This document shows, one piece after another, positions 2,473-56,056 of a stretch of 64,000 nucleotides of DNA. A program made the position numbers and the translations under genes. Source of the DNA: a virus; the IMG/VR virus record IMGVR_UViG_3300042554_000984, positions 1 through 64,000 of that record; one strand, given 5' to 3'. The notes beneath the pieces are model-generated. The model saw only the letters and a list, made by a program, of their open reading frames with translations. It was not told the DNA's origin and searched no databases. How positions within the stretch are numbered: position 1 is the stretch's first letter; each line of letters begins with the position of its first letter.

Positions 2473-4830
2473 TCAGTCTCGCTTGCTCACTCGGGCGGCG
2501 ATACGAGCCATCAGCGGACGGCTCGACTTGTTCTTGGAAATCTCGTCGGAGAGGGCACGGGCCAACTTGGCCTTCGTCGCCGTGGTGCCGTCGATGGCAT
2601 CAAGGTAGTCCTCCTCGTCGGCCTCAAGGTCGGTCAGGCCGAACCACTCGGAGTAGCCCATCCACTCCTCGCCCGAAACCCAACCCTCGTCGCGGAGGAA
2701 CTTCTTCTTGGCCGCGATGTAGGCCTCGCCGTTGACAACGGCCTTGGCATACTCCTTGGTCTTCTTGCTCATTCGGGCCACGCAAGTCTGCATGTAGGAG
2801 TTGAGGGCACGGGTTCCGTCGATGCGGAAGCCGATCACATTGCAGTCAGCCTCAACCCGAAGGTAGCGAAGGTAGGCATCCTCGGCACCCGTGTAGGCTT
2901 CCACCGCCCGCTTGCCCTGAATGTTGACTTCAGCGAAGTCGCGGCTGTAGCCCGTGGGCGAGTTATCGTCGGTCCACACATTCACCCAACGGTCAGCCAC
3001 ATAGCGGTAGCCCGTCCGATCCGTAGCCTCGCCATCGGTGAGGATGACGGTGTTCACGATCTGGACACCGGTCTTTGCACGGAACATCGGGACCACGGTA
3101 GCCATCGAAGCGATGGCCGCATTCAGCGGAGTGCCGTTGAGGTAGTACTTGGAGGCAAGGTGATCGCCCTTGGCATTCTTGCCAAACATCTCGTCGTGAC
3201 GGTAGGACCGGCTGTGCTTGGCCCAAGCGAGGAGTCCCGCGAGGGCAGTACGAATCTGCACGGGCTTGGCCGAAGCCGACAAGATGTTCAGCAGGCGGAA
3301 GTCGGAGAAGATGAGTTCGCCGTCATTGCGAGTCCAAACCTTTTCCTTAACGATGCCGTGAGCATCGGAGAAAGCGTAGACTTCGCAGGGGATGTTCGCC
3401 GCAGCGCAGAACTGCACCAAGCAGCCCAACTGCATGATCGTGGGCTCAAGGATGCGATTCATGCTGCCCGACCAGTCAAGCAGGAACACAAGTCCGTGAT
3501 TCTTGCCTTCCTTCTTGACTTCGTAGGAACCGAAGATTTCCTCCGAAATCCGATAGGCCCACAGGCGGCTGGGGTCGATGGCACCCGTATCGGCGGTGCG
3601 AGTGCGGTTAGCCTCGTCAGCGGCCTTGCGGCGCATGAATTCCTGAACAAGCGCCGTGATCGAACGGCGATTCTTGGCCATGAACTGCTGATAGAGGGCG
3701 AAGCCGTCACCCTTCTCGGCCATCAGCCGAAGATCATCGATAACCTCGCTGAAGGGCAGGATGCCCTTGGCGGCATCGAAGGTCGGCATTCTGACCGTGG
3801 AAGTCCCATAGTTGGAATGCTCGTCGCGGTTCTGCTTGGCAAGTTCCTCGAAAGCCGAATCCGTCACCGACTCACGGGGAGTCCGATTCTTGGATTCCTT
3901 CGTTGACTTGCCCTGAGCCTCGCCCTCGCTCTCATCGTCCGAATCCGACTCCGACTCCTCGCCCTCGTCGCTGGCGTTATCGGACTCCTCGCCCTCCTCG
4001 CCACCTTCGGTGCTTTCGTCGGCGTTTTCGTTCTCGCCCTCGTCGGCGGTATCGCCCCGCTCCTCGCCCTCTTCGGACTCGTCAGAACCCGACGAATCGC
4101 CCTGCTCCTCGTCGGACTCCTGCTTTTGGTTGTCCTGCGGACTGCCGCTGCCCTCGCCTTCCTCACCGTCCTGCGGCTCGGACATGTCGCCGTCCTCGCC
4201 CTGCGACTCTTCCTGCGAGGAGTAGTCGAAGAGTTCCTTGGCAAGGGCAACAACCTCGTCCCAAGACTTGGTAGTCGCGACCCGCTTGACAAGGGGAAGT
4301 TCAGCGGCAGAGAACGGGACATTGACCGCGAAACCAACCTTATAGTGAATGTTGATTCGGTCAATCAGCGGGAGTTCCGAAAGATCCTTGTCAAGGGCAA
4401 GCAACTTCGGGTTCGTGATCGTCAGACTACGGTACGCCTTGGCGAAGGTCGAACGCAGGCCGGGATAGGTATCCTTCATGCTGCGTTCGATTCGGGCATC
4501 CTCAACGATGTTCACATAGCCCTTGAAGGAGTTGAAGCCTTCCTTGCCGACGAGTTCGGTGAGTTCCTTCACCCATGCGTCACCCTTGGGGCTGTGCATG
4601 GCGTGGCCGACTTCGTGAGCGACGAGCATGTCGTACAGGTCGCCGTCCATCGCCTTCCAAACAGGAAGGGTCAGAAGACGGGTCTTGGTGTCAAACGATG
4701 CGGTCGCGGCCCGATGCGAGTGCTGCACCCGAATGTTTTCGGTCGCAAGCAGACGGGCCAGAAGCGAAAGAGCCTCAACCTGACGGCGGTTCAGGTTTGG
4801 CTTCGGGGTGTTGGCTAGGGTAGGGGTCAC
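2473..4830 (-). CDS. HEXXH + VWA-domain protein (CobT-like)
   Basis: 785 residues from GTG 4830. The N-terminal region carries HEVGH (residues 72-76), a zinc-peptidase-type helix also seen in VWA proteins of this class. A highly acidic Glu/Ser/Asp tract (about 205-310) follows. The VWA domain has a MIDAS motif DWSGS (about 452) and LTDGEA (about 600). This architecture resembles CobT and the VWA partners of MoxR AAA ATPases, and a CobS/MoxR-like ATPase lies immediately divergent at 5115. By analogy the pair would remodel a protein complex or insert a metal. Cobalamin synthesis itself is unlikely, as no other pathway gene is present. The -10 box ends 6 nt before the GTG, so the mRNA should be leaderless. 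Confidence 0.85.
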   Translation of the reverse strand: MTPTLANTPKPNLNRRQVEALSLLARLLATENIRVQHSHRAATASFDTKTRLLTLPVWKAMDGDLYDMLVAHEVGHAMHSPKGDAWVKELTELVGKEGFNSFKGYVNIVEDARIERSMKDTYPGLRSTFAKAYRSLTITNPKLLALDKDLSELPLIDRINIHYKVGFAVNVPFSAAELPLVKRVATTKSWDEVVALAKELFDYSSQEESQGEDGDMSEPQDGEEGEGSGSPQDNQKQESDEEQGDSSGSDESEEGEERGDTADEGENENADESTEGGEEGEESDNASDEGEESESDSDDESEGEAQGKSTKESKNRTPRESVTDSAFEELAKQNRDEHSNYGTSTVRMPTFDAAKGILPFSEVIDDLRLMAEKGDGFALYQQFMAKNRRSITALVQEFMRRKAADEANRTRTADTGAIDPSRLWAYRISEEIFGSYEVKKEGKNHGLVFLLDWSGSMNRILEPTIMQLGCLVQFCAAANIPCEVYAFSDAHGIVKEKVWTRNDGELIFSDFRLLNILSASAKPVQIRTALAGLLAWAKHSRSYRHDEMFGKNAKGDHLASKYYLNGTPLNAAIASMATVVPMFRAKTGVQIVNTVILTDGEATDRTGYRYVADRWVNVWTDDNSPTGYSRDFAEVNIQGKRAVEAYTGAEDAYLRYLRVEADCNVIGFRIDGTRALNSYMQTCVARMSKKTKEYAKAVVNGEAYIAAKKKFLRDEGWVSGEEWMGYSEWFGLTDLEADEEDYLDAIDGTTATKAKLARALSDEISKNKSSRPLMARIAARVSKRD

Positions 4831-5014: not shown

Positions 5015-5057
5015 TTAAGAAAAAAGATTATTGGCTAGCAAAACGCACCCATGGGGA

Positions 5058-5086
5058 TTGACTTTTGAGAATGCTTCGTTTACACT
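5058..5086 (+). promoter_or_regulatory. sigma70-type promoter for the AAA ATPase gene
   Basis: TTGACT (5058-5063), exact 17-nt spacer, TACACT (5081-5086). Its position rules out the longer in-frame start at 5031 and favours ATG 5115, which has AAAGGAG about 10 nt upstream. Confidence 0.75.
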
Positions 5087-5114
5087 TTGGTCAGCCAAAG
5101 GAGCAATCGACCCC

Positions 5115-6383
5115 ATGAAGCGTTCTGAAGCCAAGTCCAAGTTCCTCACCGCCGCCTACGCCATTACGGGCGGCTCCCGTGAGATTACCCGCCCACAAGT
5201 AGTTCAGGCCGCCGATGACGCAGGGCTTCCGATCCCTGCGTGGTTCGTCAACGACCGCGAGTATCGGGTCGCTTGGGGACGCTACCGCCTGCCGCTACAG
5301 GATGGCGTGGTCGCTCCTCGCAAGGCGACTGCCCCGTCCGTGACCGTCCGTCCCGCCCCCGTGGCGACTCCCGTTCAGGTGGCCCCGCCGCCGATGGTTG
5401 AGTCCGCTCCCGTGGCTCAGACTTCCCTTGACCTTGCCATCCTGAGTGGCGAGGCCGTTGTTCCGACCGTGGATCCCAACTATGTGGCTTGGGGCAACCA
5501 CGACACGATTTACGAAATCGTCAAGAGCGGACGGTTCTTCCCCGTCTATGTGTGGGGTCTGTCCGGTAACGGCAAGACCTTCACTACCGAACAGGTCTGC
5601 GCCATGCTTGGCCGCGAGTACTATCGGGTGAACATCACCCCCGAGACTTGCGAAGACGATTTGCTTGGCGGGTTCCGACTCGTCAGCGGCGAAACCAAGT
5701 TCGTGTACGGGCCGGTGTCCCTCGCGATGGAGCGGGGCGGCGTTCTCCTGCTTGACGAGGTTGACCTTGGGTCGGATAAGATCATGGCGCTTCAGCCCGT
5801 CCTTGAGGGCAAGCCCGTGTATCTGAAGAAAATCAACAAGTGGGTCCGTCCCGCCCCCGGCTTCACGGTCGTGATGACCGGTAACACCAAGGGTCTTGGC
5901 GACGAGACTGGCAAGTTCGCGGGAACTCGCATCCTGAACACGGCCTTCCTTGAGCGAGTGAACATCATGCTCAAGCAGGAATACCCCCGTCCCACGGTTG
6001 AGAAGAAGATTCTCACGAAGATGATGGAATCTTCGGGTTGCGTGGACGAGAAGTTCGCTGATGCGCTGGTCCGTTGGGCCGAGGCCATCCGCAAGACCTA
6101 CGACGAAGGCGTGAGCGAGGAAGTCATCACGACCCGCCGCCTCGTCCAGATCGTCAGCGGGTACTGCATCTTCAAGGATCGCCTGACCGCCGTTCGTCAC
6201 GGCGTGGGCCGGTTCGATGATGTCACGGCTGAAGCCTTCCTCAATCTCTACCAGAAGATTGACGCTGAGGCTACCGCCGCCGATCCCGATGCGTCCAAGG
6301 CGGGTGCAGCCCCTGATGAACACCTTCAGGCTCACGCTGCCGCCGCTGCGGCCACGGCTTCCACGACCAAGGCTCCCTTCTGA
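5115..6383 (+). CDS. MoxR/CobS-like AAA+ ATPase
   Basis: 422 residues. The N-terminal ~60 residues form a small domain (ITRPQVVQAADDAGLPIPAW, then WGRYRLP). A Pro/Ala/Val linker follows, then an AAA+ core with Walker A GLSGNGKT (about 147) and Walker B GGVLLLDEVDLG (about 209). A sensor-1-like VVMTGNTKGLG and lid sequences follow. The C-terminal tail is Ala-rich. CobS-type ATPases occur in T4-like cyanophages, and MoxR/CobS enzymes work with VWA partners such as the divergent 785-aa protein. A complex of the two is inferred. The N-terminal domain resembles the 97-aa protein at 6768. Confidence 0.88.
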   Translation: MKRSEAKSKFLTAAYAITGGSREITRPQVVQAADDAGLPIPAWFVNDREYRVAWGRYRLPLQDGVVAPRKATAPSVTVRPAPVATPVQVAPPPMVESAPVAQTSLDLAILSGEAVVPTVDPNYVAWGNHDTIYEIVKSGRFFPVYVWGLSGNGKTFTTEQVCAMLGREYYRVNITPETCEDDLLGGFRLVSGETKFVYGPVSLAMERGGVLLLDEVDLGSDKIMALQPVLEGKPVYLKKINKWVRPAPGFTVVMTGNTKGLGDETGKFAGTRILNTAFLERVNIMLKQEYPRPTVEKKILTKMMESSGCVDEKFADALVRWAEAIRKTYDEGVSEEVITTRRLVQIVSGYCIFKDRLTAVRHGVGRFDDVTAEAFLNLYQKIDAEATAADPDASKAGAAPDEHLQAHAAAAAATASTTKAPF

Positions 6384-16133: not shown

Positions 16134-16447
16134 TGCACTATCGTGACTTGAAGAAAAAGTTGGAAGAGGAGATTGCCAACACCACGGCGATCATCAATTA
16201 TCCCGCAGGGTTCCAAGTAGACACGGTTCCATCTGACTTCGATGTCGAAGACTTTCCCGAGGATGATGAGTGGAGCAGAGACAGAAAAGACCTTGGCGAC
16301 AAGTGGGAAGTTGCAAATGCAGCGGCAGCACGGGAACGCCGTGAGACTGTACTTCGCTGGCTTAAAGCCGCCTCTGGCAATCAGTTAAATGCGGTTGACA
16401 ACAAGAGCCTCCCCAAGGTTCCCGGTTGGCAATCCGAGAAGTATTAA
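16133..16447 (+). CDS. hypothetical 104-aa protein
   Basis: Begins MHYRDLKKKLEEEIANTTAI with an acidic middle (FDVEDFPEDDEWSRDRKD) and an Ala/Arg-rich helix. Starts in a TAATG overlap. The leader is another variant of the M-x-x-x-L-K-K-x-x-E-E pattern seen in late genes here. Function unknown. Confidence 0.55.
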   Translation: MHYRDLKKKLEEEIANTTAIINYPAGFQVDTVPSDFDVEDFPEDDEWSRDRKDLGDKWEVANAAAARERRETVLRWLKAASGNQLNAVDNKSLPKVPGWQSEKY

Positions 16448-16449
16448 AC

Positions 16450-16479
16450 TTGACACGAATTGTGGGGTGAATGTAGACT
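16450..16479 (+). promoter_or_regulatory. sigma70-type promoter for the barrel protein gene
   Basis: TTGACA (16450-16455), 18-nt spacer, TAGACT (16474-16479). Confidence 0.5.
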
Positions 16480-16535
16480 CCCTCCCTATACATACCTATC
16501 CCTATCCATTGTGGGTCGGGAGTTACAAAGGAGAA

Positions 16536-17306
16536 ATGATGAAGAAAGTAATTACCTACGCTGCGGCTATGGTTGCCGCTCTTTCCTTCGGCCACATGGC
16601 TGCTGCTCAGGAGGCTGCTGCTCCTGCCGCTGCTCCGGTGTTCGAAGTCAAGAATTGGTACTTCCGCGAGAGCATCGATGTGAATGCCCTCAAGGATAAC
16701 GGCGGCACCTTCGTTGGACTGAACCAGACCCTAGGATTCGACATCATGAAGGATGTGACTGTCGATTTCAATGTTCCCGTGTATGCACAGAATGGCTACA
16801 CCTCGGTGGCCAACCTCATGCTCGGTGCAAATTGGGCTGCGTTCAAGGGCAACAACAGCGTCCTTGGTGACTGGATGCTGAACTTCGGTGGCGGTTTCTA
16901 CATTCCCGTTGGTACGGAATACTTCCGCAATGCGAATGTGAACCCGTTCGTGAACACCAAGTTCGGCTTCGATCTGTGGAAGTTCGACTTCGCACAGACC
17001 GTTGACTACCGCTTCAACGGTGGAGAGTCCTACATCACTTGGCTCGGAGCCAAGACCGATTCGGATGTCCTCACCCTTGTGTCGGATCTGTCCTATGCTT
17101 GGAACGCTTGGAACTTCGGCCTACAGTTTGACCAGTTGTACTATGTCAACAGCGGCGAGTACCAGTTGTTCCTTGGTCCGGTTGCTTCGTGGGAGGTTGC
17201 TTCGAATGTTTCGTTCGACGCTGCCATCCTCATCCCTGTTGCACAACAGGTCACTAGCGCCGAGTCCAATGCCTTCGTGAAGGCTGGCATCGAAGTCAAG
17301 TTCTGA
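16536..17306 (+). CDS. outer-membrane beta-barrel-like protein with signal peptide
   Basis: 256 residues from ATG 16536 (ACAAAGGAGAA upstream). A typical signal peptide (MMKKVITYAAAMVAALSFGH... AAA/Q) is followed by alternating aromatic strands (TLGFDIMKDVTVDFNVPVYA, WMLNFGGGFYIPVG, FAQTVDYRFNGGESYITW). The protein ends in Phe (AGIEVKF), as outer-membrane barrels do. A secreted phage barrel could alter the host surface, for example for superinfection exclusion; this is inference. It is monocistronic, with its own early-type promoter and terminator. Confidence 0.75.
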   Translation: MMKKVITYAAAMVAALSFGHMAAAQEAAAPAAAPVFEVKNWYFRESIDVNALKDNGGTFVGLNQTLGFDIMKDVTVDFNVPVYAQNGYTSVANLMLGANWAAFKGNNSVLGDWMLNFGGGFYIPVGTEYFRNANVNPFVNTKFGFDLWKFDFAQTVDYRFNGGESYITWLGAKTDSDVLTLVSDLSYAWNAWNFGLQFDQLYYVNSGEYQLFLGPVASWEVASNVSFDAAILIPVAQQVTSAESNAFVKAGIEVKF

Positions 17307-17373: not shown

Positions 17374-18258
17374 ATGCGTAGATTCCGAAGTTTCGTTTCC
17401 GAAGGTTACAACGGCGATGGCGATTGCATGGAAGCCGCCGCCAACCTAATGATGCGTTTTCACACTCCTTTCTTCGGAAAGCAGTTGCAGTCCAAGTCGG
17501 GAAATCCCATTCTCGTCCATGCCCTCGTCTACGGACAGGGGCCGGTGAAGAATCTTCGGTTCCCCCATGCATGGGTTGAGGATGGAGATACCGTCATCGA
17601 CCAATCCAACGGTCGCGATATCCAAATGGACAAGCGAGTTTACTACGCAGTAGGCAAGATTGATCCCAAGCAGAAGGGTGCCTACAAGACATATACCTTC
17701 AAGGAAATGAAGAAGAAGTTGACATCTACAGGTCACTACGGACATTGGGACTTGGATGAGAAACTTGAGGAAGTCACTTCGCGAATTGGCAAGATGCGAA
17801 AGCCGGTTGGACGCAAGGTGATGGACATCCTGAAGGAAGCAATCGTCAGCGGAGTGGGCGGTGGCGTAAGAAAGCCGATGCCCCCTTCATCCCCCGTCAA
17901 GAAGATTGAGTGGAACGAGTTGAAGCGGCTTGAGTCGATGCTTGACAATCTGTTCGCCGCTGCAAAGTTGGACATCAAGTTCACCAAGCACTTCCTTGAG
18001 AGAGTCAACGGTTCCCGTGGGTACGGCGGCACCGTGACGATGGGTGAGATTCAGGATGCCTTCAACAAGACATTCAAGAAGTATGCAAGCGTCATTCAGA
18101 ACAAGCCCGTCGATTGGAAGGCAGTCATCAACGATGTCTCCAAGAATCTCAACATGCCGTTTGCGTTGGATTGGGACGCAAGCAAGAAAAGCATGGTGAT
18201 CCTGACGGCGATGAAGAAACCCAACTTTGCCTCGCCCGACCCAAAGTTGAAGGTCTGA
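17374..18258 (+). CDS. papain/transglutaminase-like domain protein with capsid-leader-like N-terminus
   Basis: 294 residues. The N-terminus MRRFRSFVSEG resembles the T4 capsid-targeting leader. Next come GDCMEAA (Cys18), FPHAWVED (His65) and TVIDQSNG (Asp76), the order and context of a papain-like Cys-His-Asp triad. The C-terminal third (DIKFTKHFLERVNGSRGYGG ... SMVILTAMKKP) is a separate domain common in T4-like hypothetical proteins. A packaged cysteine protease, amidase or transglutaminase injected with DNA is plausible but inferred. Confidence 0.6.
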   Translation: MRRFRSFVSEGYNGDGDCMEAAANLMMRFHTPFFGKQLQSKSGNPILVHALVYGQGPVKNLRFPHAWVEDGDTVIDQSNGRDIQMDKRVYYAVGKIDPKQKGAYKTYTFKEMKKKLTSTGHYGHWDLDEKLEEVTSRIGKMRKPVGRKVMDILKEAIVSGVGGGVRKPMPPSSPVKKIEWNELKRLESMLDNLFAAAKLDIKFTKHFLERVNGSRGYGGTVTMGEIQDAFNKTFKKYASVIQNKPVDWKAVINDVSKNLNMPFALDWDASKKSMVILTAMKKPNFASPDPKLKV

Positions 18259-19689: not shown

Positions 19690-20487
19690 ATGCGGATGCG
19701 TAATCTAGCGGCGGCTGCACTTGCGGTCGCTCTTCCCACGGTAGGGCTGAATGCCTGCAAAGGTGTCAGCCCTTTGTCTTTCCATGAGTCGATGGAGGCA
19801 CAGCGAACGGTGGTGATACGCAGGATAATTTCCTGCAATATTGCAATCTCGTACAACAATGCATTGGGTTCGGGTGTTGTGTATCGCAAAGATGGAAAGT
19901 TGTATGCACTTACCGCTGCCCATGTCGTTGAAGACGAACCCACCACGGTCGCAGCATTTTCGGTAAACGGTTCAGCACCGATTCCTTTCGTCACAAAGAC
20001 CCACGGAACCAAGGACATACTTGTGTTTGCCGTGGAGGAAAATGGAACGAATGTGTATTATGCCTGCAAGGCAGACATTGTTCTTGTGGTTCCAGAAGAG
20101 GACATAGCGGTCTTGCAGTTGCAGGAAATACCCGGCTTGGTTGAAAACATTGGCAATTCAACTTTTGACTTTTCGACTCCAACCATTGGTGAAAGAGTCT
20201 TTGCCGTTGGCAACACCTCTTTCGAAATTGGAACTTTGTCGGCAGGGATAGTTCAGCATGGAAACAGAAAGCCCGCAGGAAGCACAGGAGAACAAAGATT
20301 CGTACAGAGCGACTGTGCAGGAGGACCGGGGATGAGTGGTGGTGGGCTGTTCCTGCAAAGCACGGGAGAGTGCATCGGAATCGTGTCCATGAAGAGCGAT
20401 ATCACGGGAAGCATTTATGCCATCCCTATGAGCAAAGTCAAAACTTCAATTTTGAATTCCCTTCGGAAGGATGTCTGTCCCGACTGA
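19690..20487 (+). CDS. secreted lipoprotein, trypsin-like serine protease
   Basis: 265 residues. The signal peptide ends in a lipobox-like LNAC (Cys23), so a lipoprotein is likely. The chymotrypsin/DegP-type triad is complete: His in LTAAHVVED (78), Asp in EEDIAVLQL (about 138), Ser in GGPGMSGGGLF (about 216). It should be processed and act in the envelope or outside the cell. It shares a late promoter with the downstream subtilase (42-nt gap), making a two-protease cassette. Targets unknown: host envelope degradation at lysis, or surface proteins. Confidence 0.85.
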   Translation: MRMRNLAAAALAVALPTVGLNACKGVSPLSFHESMEAQRTVVIRRIISCNIAISYNNALGSGVVYRKDGKLYALTAAHVVEDEPTTVAAFSVNGSAPIPFVTKTHGTKDILVFAVEENGTNVYYACKADIVLVVPEEDIAVLQLQEIPGLVENIGNSTFDFSTPTIGERVFAVGNTSFEIGTLSAGIVQHGNRKPAGSTGEQRFVQSDCAGGPGMSGGGLFLQSTGECIGIVSMKSDITGSIYAIPMSKVKTSILNSLRKDVCPD

Positions 20488-20529: not shown

Positions 20530-21936
20530 ATGCTGCTACCTCTAGCAACCACCCTGTCGCTTCTCGCCCCTCCACAGATTGCCGAAGTTCCGCAAGTGGA
20601 TACCATGTTCATCCAATGGAAGCAGTCAGCAGACAAGGCACGAATACTTTCCTCGCTTGATGGCATTGAATCCGTACACCACTACGAGAACATTCCCAAC
20701 CTTACTTTGGTTGACATGGTTGATGTTTCGTCAATGCAGCAGGCAACATCTAAACTTTCGGGAAATCCAAGCATTGAATTCATCGAAGAGGATCGATGGG
20801 TCATCGTTGAGAGGCAGACTTTCCCACCACCGAATGATCCCGGCTTCTCTCAATGTTGGGGTCTTCGCAACACCGGCTCAAGTGGCGGTCAGGCGGGATG
20901 GGACATGAATGCCTTGGGTGCTTGGGATGTAACCACGGGGAATCCTGCCGTCAGAGTGATGATCATCGAAACGGGAGTGGATGAGACACATGCTGACCTG
21001 AACCTAGACCAAGGCAGGGACTTTACCACAGGTGCCGTAAATGGCATCTTGGGTGGGGGGCCAAGCAATCAATGTGACAATCATGGCACAGCCGTGGCAG
21101 GATGCATCTCCGCAAGGATCAACAACGCATCAGGCACGGTCGGGATCGCTCCCAATTGCAAGGTGGTATCGGCAAAGGTAGGCATTGCAACTACGCCATG
21201 CAGCGGCTCATGGAATGGACAGATCAGTTGGACGGTGAATGCCTTGAATTGGGCAATCGGTGCAGGCATAAAGGTGACCAACAACAGCAACGATTACGGC
21301 ACATCCTCCAATGCAATGAGCAGCGCATATTCGGCAGGCCGTGCAGCAGGCATCGTGCATTTTGCAAGTGCAGGCAACGGAGGAACGGAGGGCATGGGAT
21401 TCCCCGCAAGATTGAGCAGCGTCAATGCTGTAGGCTCTGCCTCAAGGAATGGAACCAAGTCTTCTTTCTCAAGTTACGGCAACGGAATTGCATTCGTTGC
21501 TCCCGGTCAGTCCATCTATACAACCGACAGAACAGGAAGTGCAGGATACAATTCAACAAATTGGGTTACCATCGACGGCACATCGTTCTCGTCGCCATAT
21601 GCAGCCGGTGTCGCTGCCCTGCTGTTTTCCGTAAATCCAACCTTGACTCCCACGCAAGTTGAAAATGCGATGAAGTCAACAGCCGATGACATGGGAACCG
21701 CAGGCTATGACACACTTACGGGATGGGGAATGATCGATGCAGCAAAGGCCGTGCAGGCAGTTGCACCACAGCCCTGTCCTGCCGACTTGAACGGGGATTC
21801 AATCGTAGACGGAAATGATCTTGGAATTTTCCTGAGCCTGTGGGGGCAGTCAAATTCAGCAGCCGATTTCAACAATGACAATTTTGTAGATGGAATCGAT
21901 CTTGGAATTTTGCTAAACGCTTGGGGTGGCTGCTGA
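20530..21936 (+). CDS. secreted subtilase with planctomycete-type dockerin-like C-terminus
   Basis: 468 residues. A short hydrophobic leader (MLLPLATTLSLLAPP) precedes an I9-like propeptide (SLDGIESVHHYENI). The S8 catalytic domain carries Asp in IIETGVDETH (about 147), His in NHGTAVAG (about 186) and Ser in GTSFSSPYAAG (about 352). The C-terminal ~55 residues hold two calcium-loop repeats, CPADLNGDSIVDGNDLGI and FNNDNFVDGIDLGI, each followed by L-x-x-WG and ending in Cys. This dockerin-like pair is characteristic of secreted Planctomycetota proteins, so the gene was probably captured from such a host. AGGAGA precedes the ATG. Confidence 0.88.
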   Translation: MLLPLATTLSLLAPPQIAEVPQVDTMFIQWKQSADKARILSSLDGIESVHHYENIPNLTLVDMVDVSSMQQATSKLSGNPSIEFIEEDRWVIVERQTFPPPNDPGFSQCWGLRNTGSSGGQAGWDMNALGAWDVTTGNPAVRVMIIETGVDETHADLNLDQGRDFTTGAVNGILGGGPSNQCDNHGTAVAGCISARINNASGTVGIAPNCKVVSAKVGIATTPCSGSWNGQISWTVNALNWAIGAGIKVTNNSNDYGTSSNAMSSAYSAGRAAGIVHFASAGNGGTEGMGFPARLSSVNAVGSASRNGTKSSFSSYGNGIAFVAPGQSIYTTDRTGSAGYNSTNWVTIDGTSFSSPYAAGVAALLFSVNPTLTPTQVENAMKSTADDMGTAGYDTLTGWGMIDAAKAVQAVAPQPCPADLNGDSIVDGNDLGIFLSLWGQSNSAADFNNDNFVDGIDLGILLNAWGGC

Positions 21937-21981: not shown

Positions 21982-22008
21982 GTGAGCAACACTTTGGAGA
22001 ACTACACC

Positions 22009-22716
22009 ATGAAGATCAGCCAAGACACACTCGCAATCCTCAAGAACTTCAGCACGATCAACAGCAATCTGCTCGTTCGTCCGGGAAACACCCTGACCAC
22101 GATCAGCCCCACCAAGAACATCCTCGCTGAAGCCACCGTCACCGAGACATTTGATGTTGAGTTTGGAGTTTGGGATTTGTCCAAGTTCCTCGCCACCATC
22201 AGCCTGTTCAAGGATCCCGAGTTTGACTTCAGCGATTCCTATGTGGAGATTTCCTCCACCGGCAGCAAGGCTTCGGTGAAGTACTACTACAGCGAACCCG
22301 AACTGCTCGTCAAGGCCGATAAGAAGTTGAAGATGCCGGGGACTCCCGTGAACTTCACCCTCACGGCCAAGGACTACACGGAGTTGCAGAAGGCTGCATC
22401 CGTCCTTCAGGCACCTGACCTTGCATTGGAGTCCACCGACGATGACCGCATGGTTCTCCGTGTCTTTGATCGCAAGGACAGCACAAGCCACTCCTACAGC
22501 ATCGATGTCGGAGAGAACAAGAGCGGTGCGGCTTTCTCTTTCCTCTTCAAGACCGAGAACCTGAAGATGATTCCTGGCACCTACGAGGTGGGCATCAGCG
22601 AGAAGAAGGTGAGTCAGTTCCGCAACAGCAACGGCATCACCTATTGGATTTCACTAGAGGCAGACAGCGAGTACGAGGCTTCCAACAACAAGATCGCCAA
22701 TGTCGCTTCTCGTTGA
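22009..22716 (+). CDS. 45: sliding clamp (T4 gp45-like)
   Basis: 235 residues from ATG 22009 (MKISQDTLAILKNFSTINSN). The fold and features match T4 gp45: an N-terminal helix followed by ITV-type strands, SLEADSEYEASNNKIANV near the end, and position directly before the clamp loader. It forms the trimeric processivity ring for the gp43 polymerase and, in T4, also activates late transcription. That fits the late boxes found throughout this window. Overlaps gp44 by 17 nt. Confidence 0.9.
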   Translation: MKISQDTLAILKNFSTINSNLLVRPGNTLTTISPTKNILAEATVTETFDVEFGVWDLSKFLATISLFKDPEFDFSDSYVEISSTGSKASVKYYYSEPELLVKADKKLKMPGTPVNFTLTAKDYTELQKAASVLQAPDLALESTDDDRMVLRVFDRKDSTSHSYSIDVGENKSGAAFSFLFKTENLKMIPGTYEVGISEKKVSQFRNSNGITYWISLEADSEYEASNNKIANVASR

Positions 22717-23629
22717 AAAGTATCGTCCCGCCAAAATTGCCGATTGCGTCCTGCCCAAGAACATCAAGAAGATGTTTGAGGATATCGCCAAGACTGGCGA
22801 CATCCCCAACTTGATTCTCAACGGCGGTGCGGGTTGCGGCAAGACTACGGTAGCCAAGGCACTATGCAACGAACTAGGCATCGACTACCTGTTCGTGAAT
22901 GCTAGTGAGGACAGCGGCATCGATGTGCTGCGGACTCGCATCCGCAACTTTGCATCGACCGTTGCCCTTGGTGGAGGGAAGAAGGTTGTCATCCTTGATG
23001 AGGCTGACTATCTCAATCCGCAGTCCACGCAACCCGCACTCCGTGGGTTCATCGAAGAGTTCGCGGCAAACTGTCGCTTCATCATGACTTGCAACTTCAA
23101 GAGTCGGATCATCGAACCGCTGCACTCCCGCTGCACGATGATCGACTTCAAGATTCCAAGCAAGGAGAAGCCAACGCTTGCATCGGAGTTTCTTGAACGG
23201 GCGAAGTTCGTGCTTGGCAGCGAGGGGATCGCTTATGACGAGAAGGTGGTTGCCCAACTCATCGTAAAGAACTTCCCCGATTTCCGCAAGGTTCTCAACC
23301 TGATTCAGCGTTATTCTGTGTCGGGTGCGATTGACTCGGGCATCCTGTCTGCATCTACGGACATCACGGTCAACTCCCTCATCGAATCGATGAAGAAGAA
23401 GGACTTCAATGGCATCCGCAAGTGGGCAGTAGACAACGCCGACAAGGAGATGGCAGGAATTTTCCGCCGTATTTATGATTCTCTGCAAGACCACATCGAC
23501 GCTCCATCGATTCCACAGGCCGTGCTGATTCTGTCGGAGTATCAGTACAAGTCTGCGTTCGTCGCGGATCAGGAAATCAACCTAGTCGCTTGCTGTCTCA
23601 TGCTTGCTTCCGATTGCACCTTTCGATAA
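22700..23629 (+). CDS. 44: clamp loader large subunit (T4 gp44-like)
   Basis: 309 residues. AAA+ ATPase with Walker A LNGGAGCGKTT (about 36-46), Walker B VVILDEADYL, an arginine-finger region (PLHSRC) and the replication factor C-type start LVEKYRPAKIADCVLP. With gp62 it opens the gp45 clamp. Starts inside the end of gp45. Confidence 0.94.
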   Translation: MSLLVEKYRPAKIADCVLPKNIKKMFEDIAKTGDIPNLILNGGAGCGKTTVAKALCNELGIDYLFVNASEDSGIDVLRTRIRNFASTVALGGGKKVVILDEADYLNPQSTQPALRGFIEEFAANCRFIMTCNFKSRIIEPLHSRCTMIDFKIPSKEKPTLASEFLERAKFVLGSEGIAYDEKVVAQLIVKNFPDFRKVLNLIQRYSVSGAIDSGILSASTDITVNSLIESMKKKDFNGIRKWAVDNADKEMAGIFRRIYDSLQDHIDAPSIPQAVLILSEYQYKSAFVADQEINLVACCLMLASDCTFR

Positions 23630-34438: not shown

Positions 34439-35431
34439 GTGGATAAGGTAGCAGTCATCACCGGAGTGAATGGGCAGGATGGTTCCTATCTTGCCGAATT
34501 CTTGCTTGGCAAGGGCTATCGTGTGGTCGGACTGCGCCGTTCTCCGTCCTCAAGCACCCACAGGATCGAATCCATCCTGAGCAATCCGAACTTTGAGTTG
34601 GAGATATGCGATGTCAGCGATGTGTCTCGTACCAACCACATAGTGAAGACATATCTGCCCGATGAGATATACAACCTTGCAGCGCAGTCCCATGTGGGGA
34701 TTTCCTTCCAGATGCCCGAACATACGGCGGAAACGATATGCCAAGGCACGATGAACTTGCTCAATGTCATCAAGTCGGTGTCGCCCAAGACAAAGTTTTA
34801 CCAAGCATCCTCCTCTGAGATGTTCGGCATCAGCAAGGGATCGGGACCGAATGGATTCAACGAGAACAGCCCATTCAAGCCCGTTTCCCCGTATGCATTG
34901 TCCAAGGTCTACGCACACTATTGCGCTCAGATGTATCGATCTGCCTACGGACTCTATGCCTCAAGCGGCATCCTGTTCAACCATGAGAGCCCACGCCGTG
35001 GAGAGACATTCGTGACTCGCAAGATCACGATTGGAGCAGCAAGGATACGGGAGGGATTGCAGGACAACCTTGTGTTGGGAAACATCGATGTCAAGCGTGA
35101 TTGGGGCTTTGCGGGGGATTATGTCGAAGCCATGTGGCTGATGATGCAGCAGACGGAAGCGGATGATTTCGTGATATCCACGGGGAAGGAACACACAGTC
35201 AGAGAATTCCTTCAAGTGGTATTCGATCATGCGGGACTTGGTTCGTATGAGGATTATGTGGTGGTCGATCCGAAGTTGTTTCGACCAAACGAGATACCAT
35301 CCCTTGTTGGGGATTCGTCAAAGGCACATTCCATCCTTGGGTGGAAACCAGAGGTTGACTTTGCAACCTTGGCGAAAATGATGTATGATTACGACCTTTC
35401 AAAGGTGAGGAAAGACCATGCCAACAGATAG
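34439..35431 (+). CDS. gmd: GDP-mannose 4,6-dehydratase
   Basis: 330 residues from GTG 34439. NAD(P) motif TGVNGQDGSYLAEFLL, YNLAAQSHVG, the SSSEMFG and YALSK catalytic elements, and ILFNHESPRRGETFVTRKI are diagnostic of Gmd. It makes GDP-4-keto-6-deoxymannose, the entry to GDP-fucose, GDP-rhamnose or GDP-perosamine. No reductase or aminotransferase is seen in the window, so the final sugar would need host enzymes. Overlaps the next gene by 14 nt. Confidence 0.95.
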   Translation: MDKVAVITGVNGQDGSYLAEFLLGKGYRVVGLRRSPSSSTHRIESILSNPNFELEICDVSDVSRTNHIVKTYLPDEIYNLAAQSHVGISFQMPEHTAETICQGTMNLLNVIKSVSPKTKFYQASSSEMFGISKGSGPNGFNENSPFKPVSPYALSKVYAHYCAQMYRSAYGLYASSGILFNHESPRRGETFVTRKITIGAARIREGLQDNLVLGNIDVKRDWGFAGDYVEAMWLMMQQTEADDFVISTGKEHTVREFLQVVFDHAGLGSYEDYVVVDPKLFRPNEIPSLVGDSSKAHSILGWKPEVDFATLAKMMYDYDLSKVRKDHANR

Positions 35432-55165: not shown

Positions 55166-56056
55166 ATGCTTTTTAGATGCTTTGCCGTGGTGTTGGGGGC
55201 AACCATCCTATTTGCAAATGGCTGCAAGAGCCTTCCTCCTGTCGAACCTTCCACGGGTGCAGCATCCGCAACCCTCAATTCCGTGGTTGACAGAACCAAC
55301 GATGAGGTGGCAAACATCAAGCGAGATGCCTTGGAGATCAAGGAAAATACCAAGAGTGCAATGCTGTCAAAGAGTGGACCAGAGATGGTGTTGGGCAAGA
55401 TCGACAGCGAGGCAGACGCAATCGTTGCCTCTGCCAATGACATACAGAAGGAAACCGCCAAACTCAAGAAACTCACGGCAGAGGTGACTAAACTTGAAAA
55501 GTCCCTGACTACCTTGAGGATTGCCATGGAAGAAGCCAAGGCCGCTGCACTTGAACGGCTTTATGGCTACATCACTTTGTTCTGGGTAATCGGCTTCATC
55601 TTGATCGCGGCTGGCGCTGCGGTTGCGTTCTTTCTCAACAAGACATATGGTGGGATGTTGGCGCTCCTAGGTGCCCTGATGCTTGGGTTTGCCTCTGCAT
55701 CGCATCGCTATCTTGACGAGATCGCCATGGTCGGTGCCATACTTCTTGTGGCAGGGTTCATCACGGCTGTGGGAATGATTGTCTGGTCAACCATCAACAG
55801 CAAGAGAAGCAGCATTGCCGTCAAGGAAATCGTGGAGATGATGCAGATTCTCAAGGAAACCATGACAGACGATGAGAGAAATCGAATCTTCGGGCCGGAT
55901 GGGATTGCAAGCAAGGTGCAGTCCGATCTGACCAAGGAGATCATCGCAAAGGTCAAGGAGAAGAATGGTTTCAAGCGGCTTGAGGAAATCCGCAATGCCA
56001 TGAAGGAGTCGGAGAAGACAGGAGCAACGGGGGCAGCACCGCCCGAGTCAAAGTGA
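55166..56056 (+). CDS. lipoprotein with coiled coil and three membrane spans
   Basis: 296 residues. Signal peptide with a lipobox-like FANGC (Cys20), a long coiled-coil (ANDIQKETAKLKKLTAEVTK ... RIAMEEAKAAALERL), then three hydrophobic segments (about residues 133-155, 157-175, 187-211) and a soluble charged tail. Spanning lipoprotein plus coiled coil recalls spanin- or Rz-like lysis proteins, but three spans are unusual. A membrane-remodelling lysis factor is one option. Confidence 0.65.
   Translation: MLFRCFAVVLGATILFANGCKSLPPVEPSTGAASATLNSVVDRTNDEVANIKRDALEIKENTKSAMLSKSGPEMVLGKIDSEADAIVASANDIQKETAKLKKLTAEVTKLEKSLTTLRIAMEEAKAAALERLYGYITLFWVIGFILIAAGAAVAFFLNKTYGGMLALLGALMLGFASASHRYLDEIAMVGAILLVAGFITAVGMIVWSTINSKRSSIAVKEIVEMMQILKETMTDDERNRIFGPDGIASKVQSDLTKEIIAKVKEKNGFKRLEEIRNAMKESEKTGATGAAPPESK

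Follow-up and report, generated by a model that had tools for sequence, protein, structure and literature searches.

The subtilase gene and its T4-like surroundings

The window analysed here is a stretch of 64,000 nucleotides, positions 1 to 64,000 of the virus record IMGVR_UViG_3300042554_000984, which is 74,549 bases long and colinear with a second record of 177,364 bases (G001). At 20530-21936 on the plus strand lies an open reading frame of 468 aa, with an ATG start preceded by AGGAG and a TGA stop, whose product is a subtilase-type protein ending in a dockerin. The features of this gene and its neighbours are listed below, with the basis of each assignment in brackets.

19690..20487, plus strand: trypsin-like protease whose N-terminal region contains a lipobox-like LNAC (Trypsin_2, E 2.7e-18; lipobox read by eye)
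20530..21936, plus strand: gene for the 468-aa subtilase with C-terminal dockerin, coordinates including the stop codon (ORF list, Pfam, NCBIfam)
20530..20589, plus strand: hydrophobic N-terminus, a probable export signal (read by eye; low-confidence helix at residues 3-11 in the model)
20599..20805, plus strand: probable propeptide, residues 24-92 (pLDDT blocks of 58-86 at residues 21-90)
20950..21729, plus strand: Peptidase_S8 catalytic domain, residues 141-400 (Pfam)
20968..20970, plus strand: GAA codon of Glu147, at the catalytic Asp column (alignment)
21082..21084, plus strand: codon of catalytic His185 (alignment)
21376..21378, plus strand: codon of oxyanion Asn283 (alignment)
21583..21585, plus strand: codon of catalytic Ser352, within GTSFSSP (alignment)
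21775..21933, plus strand: dockerin tail, bounded by Cys416 and Cys468 and made up of two EF-hand-type repeats (NCBIfam, motif, model)
21982..22716, plus strand: T4-type sliding clamp gp45 (gp45-slide_C, E 1e-13)
22700..23629, plus strand: T4-type clamp loader gp44 (AAA and Gp44_lid)
55166..56056, plus strand: lipoprotein-like coiled-coil gene (among the genome contexts of other viral copies, one has a homolog directly 3' of the subtilase)

The initial annotation had read the virus as a T4-like phage, and the core genes of both records agree with this. The window contains gp45, gp44, polB and a DnaB-type helicase, while G001 carries Gp23 (E 3e-151), Portal_T4, a T4-type terminase (Terminase_6), sheath, gp19, gp6, gp32 and gp5 OB. 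ARAGORN predicted four tRNA genes in the window and ten in G001, which was searched piecewise. Close relatives of the trypsin-like neighbour were found in the viral scan only in two contigs with an identical subtilase, and the lipoprotein-like gene at 55166-56056 matched no family over its cut-off. As a separate observation, the protein encoded at 16389-17306 of the window has a signal-like N-terminus and, by eye, the look of an outer-membrane barrel; a homolog of 34% identity occurs in L022, and no PHROG, Pfam or NCBIfam match was obtained.

The same annotation had described the gene product as a complete S8 protease, a description that the intact reading frame and the Pfam Peptidase_S8 match at residues 141-400 uphold (E 9.5e-39; 133.9 bits against a curated cut-off of 21.8). 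The closest solved structures by sequence are subtilisins (3whi, 1bh6 and others; E 8e-34), which share the S8 domain and the His and Ser motifs but have a catalytic Asp in the two alignments that we inspected. Subtilisins are not known to carry a dockerin. By homology the window protein is a member of the S8 fold family, as a variant and not as a proven protease. An AlphaFold model of the whole protein, built from 14 sequences, reached a mean pLDDT of only 47.4, and its S8 part is therefore unusable; a Foldseek search with it ranked subtilisin 1spb_S first (E 7.5e-4), but with an rmsd of 12 Å. Export of the protein is inferred from its hydrophobic N-terminus. There are no basic residues at this N-terminus in the window copy, while most copies of a second viral subclade begin with MK..L. 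The probable propeptide shows likeness to Fervidolysin_NPro-like below the cut-off of 21 only (13.8 for the window, 17.5 for L010 and 15.0 for L011).

Viral family, bacterial relatives and the glutamate at the catalytic Asp position

Scans of IMG/VR yielded 19 viral loci with the protein. A further scan with an alignment of the tail, which returned 48 loci in all, added 11, giving 30 viral copies of which 25 are distinct. L080, L081, L085, L086, L089, L090, L092, L094, L098 and L100 were left out as contigs already counted. S8 proteases are encoded in other phage genomes too, including Bacillus phages Goe27 and SP-15 and Staphylococcus phage phiSA_BS1, but among the matches listed (30 of 50) none exceeds 36.7% identity to the window protein. 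We found no report of a phage dockerin-subtilase in the open-access literature searched.

The subtilase is kept in at least three genome contexts. Leaving aside the two identical contigs of the window lineage, by our reading it lies beside capsid and tube-like genes or a lipoprotein-like gene in 13 of 17 loci and among other genes in three (L019, L020 and L022); L010 presents a fourth setting, and in the window the gene precedes gp45. In L019 and L020, CobT-like or MoxR-like genes lie near it. The window itself contains, at 2473-4830 and 5031-6383, what we take to be a CobT-like and MoxR-like pair; homologs of both lie near the subtilase in L020, and a homolog of the former also in L019. The predominant placement beside capsid and tube-like or lipoprotein-like genes would suit a protease that is carried on the particle or that acts at lysis, opening a proteinaceous envelope or freeing progeny from the cell surface, and the dockerins in baseplate-like and fibre-like proteins of related contigs (see below) point the same way. 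We nonetheless consider such a role improbable: the N-terminus is hydrophobic, no virion-type domain was found in the protein, and the gene sits beside gp45 and gp44 in the window lineage and among other genes in L019, L020 and L022.

The cellular relatives recovered are planctomycete. A scan of 84,980 species across all cellular phyla, made with two peptide patterns only, returned four relatives (L006-L009), all of them from Planctomycetota. A profile of the viral copies matches 120 of 298 genomes in the class of L008's genome at E<=1e-30 and 24 of 166 genomes in the order of G395 at E<=1e-60. In a tree of 85 rows, the 30 viral copies group as a single clade (99/95) among Planctomycetota rows, and L025, a subtilase of genome G395, is placed as the sister of that clade (99/88). 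This tree omits the long-branch rows L058, L047 and L044 and contains no cellular relatives from other phyla; its bootstrap stopped just short of convergence (0.989), and the subtilases of other phages used as outgroup did not form one clade. A first tree of 55 rows recovered the viral clade (93/87) and left its sister unresolved. L043 and L045 duplicate L008 and L009 and were removed before all counts. The L025 protein is 45% identical to the window protein over 449 aa and, like it, has the S8 domain followed by a WG-type dockerin, but it has the catalytic Asp, not Glu, and is encoded on a bacterial contig, where the surrounding stretch has 74% GC and ordinary bacterial genes, such as a tyrosyl-tRNA-synthetase-like gene (named by eye). 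Among the plasmid matches listed (12 of 578 records), the top identity was 33.8% and no planctomycete appeared. Best matches of the whole protein in another phylum, which would have spoken against a planctomycete link, were not met in the searches run, with other phyla thinly sampled; since these were sampled only via two patterns, plasmids and phages, the nesting within Planctomycetota holds relative to the sampled rows.

The canonical Asp-His-Ser triad is not met in the window subtilase, which has Glu147-His185-Ser352 instead. At column 147, Glu is present in all 30 viral copies, while Asp occupies the position in 54/54 Planctomycetota relatives and in the four other-phage subtilases compared (Goe27, SP-15, phiSA_BS1 and one faecal contig). 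The His and Asn of the site are kept in 88/88 rows, and the Ser in all 87 rows that reach its position; the long-branch rows L058, L047 and L044 are retained in these counts. The Glu codon is GAA in each of the 19 viral copies checked. Nine of ten viral pairs gave dN/dS values of 0.07-0.23, the tenth being saturated, and the gene has therefore been maintained in the viruses under purifying selection. On these alignments, a single Asp to Glu change after capture, followed by fixation, would be the simplest reading. Replacement of the catalytic Asp by Glu may lower or abolish activity, and the activity of a Ser-His-Glu site is only inferred here; we found no report of D32E in subtilisin in the open-access literature searched. 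A subtilase clade with Glu in every copy offers a natural test of tolerance at the catalytic Asp position.

Such a complete, lineage-specific change (Glu in 30/30 viral copies, Asp in 58/58 others) could also mean that the site does not cut. The protein would then be an inactive decoy, occupying host dockerin sites or binding substrates or inhibitors in place of the host subtilases, with the effect that the phage is protected or host proteases are displaced. Retention of the site His, Ser and Asn and the low dN/dS argue against this, as does the fact that Glu is the triad acid in some other serine hydrolases, such as acetylcholinesterase. We regard a decoy as unlikely, and rank it directly after our preferred reading, in which the protein is a captured and exported protease tethered to the surface of the infected cell; a role in the virion or at lysis comes next.

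The dockerin tail, the probable host and a possible binding partner

The tail consists of two motifs, one spanning residues 416-439 and the other 446-468, with AWGGC as the last residues of the protein. The paired C-terminal motif had been singled out in the initial annotation, and it is more than a chance likeness, since the NCBIfam model NF041540 dockerin_GC, with a curated cut-off of 29, gives 40.1 bits when the tail is scored by itself and 34.3 bits for the full-length protein. Pfam Dockerin_1 (PF00404) reached 20.1 bits on the window tail, under its gathering cut-off of 22.9, and the tail gave no match at E<=1 in 50,697 named phage records. Unlike the rest of the AlphaFold model, residues 421-468 have pLDDT values of 77-93 per block. 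Among the Foldseek hits, the experimental dockerin structure 2y3n_B comes at rank 50 (E 8.9e-3, probability 1.00, 1.2 Å over 52 columns), with a TM-score of 0.80 normalised to the target; the hits between 1spb_S and 2y3n_B include RNA-binding domains, similar in topology to the propeptide part. As modelled, the tail appears to meet the definition of a dockerin, namely two calcium-loop repeats and the dockerin fold, although calcium binding itself has not been shown.

Both repeats and both flanking Cys residues are present in all 28 viral copies that reach the C-terminus (L023 and L024 are cut off earlier), and the motifs are spaced 25-27 residues apart in viral subtilases. Scores with the curated model are nevertheless low outside the window lineage. 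The copies in L010, L011 and L020 do not reach the dockerin_GC cut-off (18.0-21.3 bits), and a six-frame search of 18 viral records exceeded it in only three, all of the window lineage, with seven below the cut-off (one, G007, through another protein) and eight without a match at E<=1. The curated model therefore sees the viral tail type in part only, and the two-repeat motif is present in the viral subtilases despite these scores.

In bacteria, tails of this kind are concentrated in one class, that of a Phycisphaeraceae MAG, which we take as Phycisphaerae from L007-L009. GC-type dockerin proteins (NF041540) are common there and have the same C-terminal two-repeat dockerin as the window protein, which differs in being phage-encoded. 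At E<=1e-3, dockerin_GC matched 159/298 genomes of the class (90 over the cut-off) and 20/294 of the phylum (11 over); of these 20 genomes, 15 were also matched in the search of the class, and each of the remaining five has a single match. A profile of the phage-type tail (A3) at E<=1e-7 matched 53/298 genomes of the class and 4/294 of the phylum, all four among the 53, and G395, the source of the closest subtilase, was also its best match in the class (2.7e-23). In 14 control genomes, dockerin_GC gave no match at E<=1e-3 and four at E<=1, none over the cut-off. The inference of a planctomycete phage made in the initial annotation, which had proposed comparing the tail with Phycisphaerae, is supported, if indirectly: the four relatives from the two-pattern scan of cellular genomes are all Planctomycetota, a single class holds most of the tail matches, and L025, the sister of the viral clade, comes from that class.

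A direct link to a host is missing. When 20 kb of phage DNA was compared with the 298 class genomes, matches occurred in 252, with two candidates scored per genome, and spacers could not show in this search; nearly all listed matches fell at about 17500-18000 of the query, in a sugar-nucleotide gene. In this connection, the window encodes at 34439-35431 a sugar-nucleotide epimerase (phrog_540), followed by genes that look glycosyltransferase-like by eye, and the best DNA matches to bacterial genomes fell in a gene similar to this epimerase.

A host outside the Planctomycetota is conceivable if the gene was obtained by exchange with planctomycete phages, or if nearer relatives exist in poorly searched phyla. 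Among named phages, the DNA polymerase is closest to those of Synechococcus phages, at about 49% identity, and other phyla were scanned by two peptide patterns and plasmids only. The 30 viral copies nevertheless fall in one clade, and dockerins recur in several unrelated genes of T4-like contigs, so that we give this possibility little weight. A cyanobacterial host in particular, suggested by the polymerase, was rejected on the absence of Photo_RC (psbA) in 6/6 phage records, most of which are fragments. Phycisphaerae are the most likely host of this T4-like phage, an indirect inference without a spacer, proximity-ligation or culture link. To our knowledge, few Planctomycetota phages are in culture. 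The class-concentrated tail on phage genes provides a sequence handle for finding Planctomycetota phages in metagenomes. Coral-reef viruses are reported to be linked to Planctomycetia (PMC11694666).

What the tail would bind is less clear. Cohesin (PF00963) was over its cut-off in one of 17 Planctomycetota genomes (three at E<=0.01), the true host genome not being identified, and in none of five phage records, several of them fragments. Two of the 14 controls, E. coli and Methanosarcina acetivorans, matched, and one of these two exceeded the cut-off. From these counts a classic cohesin partner is improbable as the rule, even though one planctomycete genome alone (G020) has 98 dockerin_GC matches, and cellulosome-like docking was rejected as the default on the same count. 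A cohesin-dockerin surface peptidase complex, the 'planctosome', has been proposed for Nemodlikiaceae, a group of freshwater Phycisphaerae (PMC6461901). Dockerins would place peptidases in this complex, and the window protein fits in kind, though its membership has not been shown; the planctosome requires a cohesin, which passed its cut-off in one of the 17 genomes tested here, a set that may or may not include a Nemodlikiaceae genome. Taken with the frequency of bacterial relatives of the same architecture in the class, this proposal leaves room for an auxiliary metabolic gene that boosts extracellular protein digestion by the host and so feeds the infection. We hold this to be the least probable of the alternatives, as a host digestive enzyme that had merely been copied would not be expected to show a fixed Asp to Glu change, and cohesin is rare in the genomes tested.

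Proposed surface tethering, and dockerins in other phage proteins

Our preferred reading, to which we give somewhat better than even credence, is the captured and exported protease tethered to the surface of the infected cell. In this proposal, a secreted subtilase of a Phycisphaerae bacterium was captured, together with its C-terminal dockerin, by a T4-like phage infecting that class. After capture, the catalytic Asp would have changed once to Glu, and the resulting Ser-His-Glu site would then have been kept. The protein would be exported in the infected cell, with the propeptide holding it latent en route, and its dockerin might fix it on the cell surface in the way in which the host attaches its own dockerin-bearing proteins. 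In that position it could cut surface proteins and thereby help progeny to exit or stop their re-adsorption; tethering, substrate and benefit are all inferred. Several observations count against this scheme, namely the lack of a direct host link, the possible loss of activity through Glu at the catalytic Asp position, the rarity of cohesin in the genomes tested, which leaves the tether without a known partner, and the lack of a basic N-terminal residue in the window copy. To these are added the low dockerin_GC scores outside the window lineage and the sister relation to L025 left unresolved in the 55-row tree.

Dockerins are not confined to the subtilase. We found them in other proteins of related T4-like contigs, defined as contigs with homologs of G001 structural genes, and the module may therefore serve virions too. 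The most striking case is a 2,148-aa homolog of the baseplate wedge at L107:2713-9159 (IMGVR_UViG_3300032302_000043), which carries 29 dockerin motifs at residues 783-1684 approximately, with 18 Dockerin_1 stretches (E 2e-98). Its identity as a wedge protein rests on Baseplate_wedge (E 4.6e-12), the PHROG baseplate wedge family (E 6.8e-52) and a 452-aa alignment with the G001 gene at 46% identity. Among the matches to named phages listed (15 of 217), coverage does not exceed 19% and lies in the N-terminal 413 residues. The presence of this protein in virions is inferred from its homology alone. In an assembled virion protein a dockerin is not a secretion tag, so that we infer a binding module there. 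A fibre-like protein of 1,083 aa with a dockerin pair (L106:5188-8439; Dockerin_1 23.8 bits, PHROG tail fibre E 3.9e-6) shares its contig with a copy of the subtilase, L088. We found no report of dockerin arrays in a phage baseplate in the open-access literature searched; in an E. coli phage, part of a tail protein is reported to have been modelled on a cellulosome dockerin/carbohydrate-binding-module entry (PMC5967307).

These proteins raise the possibility, which we put forward tentatively, that a lineage of T4-like phages of Phycisphaerae has made the host dockerin its all-purpose means of binding to surfaces, borne by an exported Ser-His-Glu protease acting at the cell surface, by further proteins and by virion components, such as the baseplate wedge with its about 15 dockerin pairs. 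The unidentified surface partner of the dockerin would in that case serve the phage as a receptor or as an anchoring site. With dockerins present in baseplate-like and fibre-like proteins, it can be tested directly whether an anchoring module of bacteria has turned into one for phage attachment. The novelty is that Glu is fixed at the site and that dockerins are used more widely; the protein family itself is not new.

The remaining cases are more modest. L102 has the motif pair in a protein encoded between homologs of T4-type neck and terminase genes, with no Pfam or PHROG match. L108 (28.2 bits) and L099 (28.4) exceed the Dockerin_1 cut-off on contigs without another G001 homolog, while L103, L104 and L117 stay below the Pfam dockerin cut-off, L111 and L116 have single motifs, and the contexts of L109, L110 and L112 are not T4-like. 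The PEP-CTERM-like ends at L021:16494-17168 (minus strand) and L022:4862-5308, at 13.1 and 14.9 against a cut-off of 16, are mentioned only in passing. The T4-like contig L021 also encodes a 264-aa protein with a dockerin (Dockerin_1 35.1 bits), whose N-terminal part looked cohesin-like by eye, a likeness that we dropped for want of Pfam support. On another T4-like contig, L014, the dockerin belongs to a trypsin-like protein (28.4 bits against 22.9 for Dockerin_1). This protein has another 17 viral relatives, and for 13 of these the alignment spans the dockerin.
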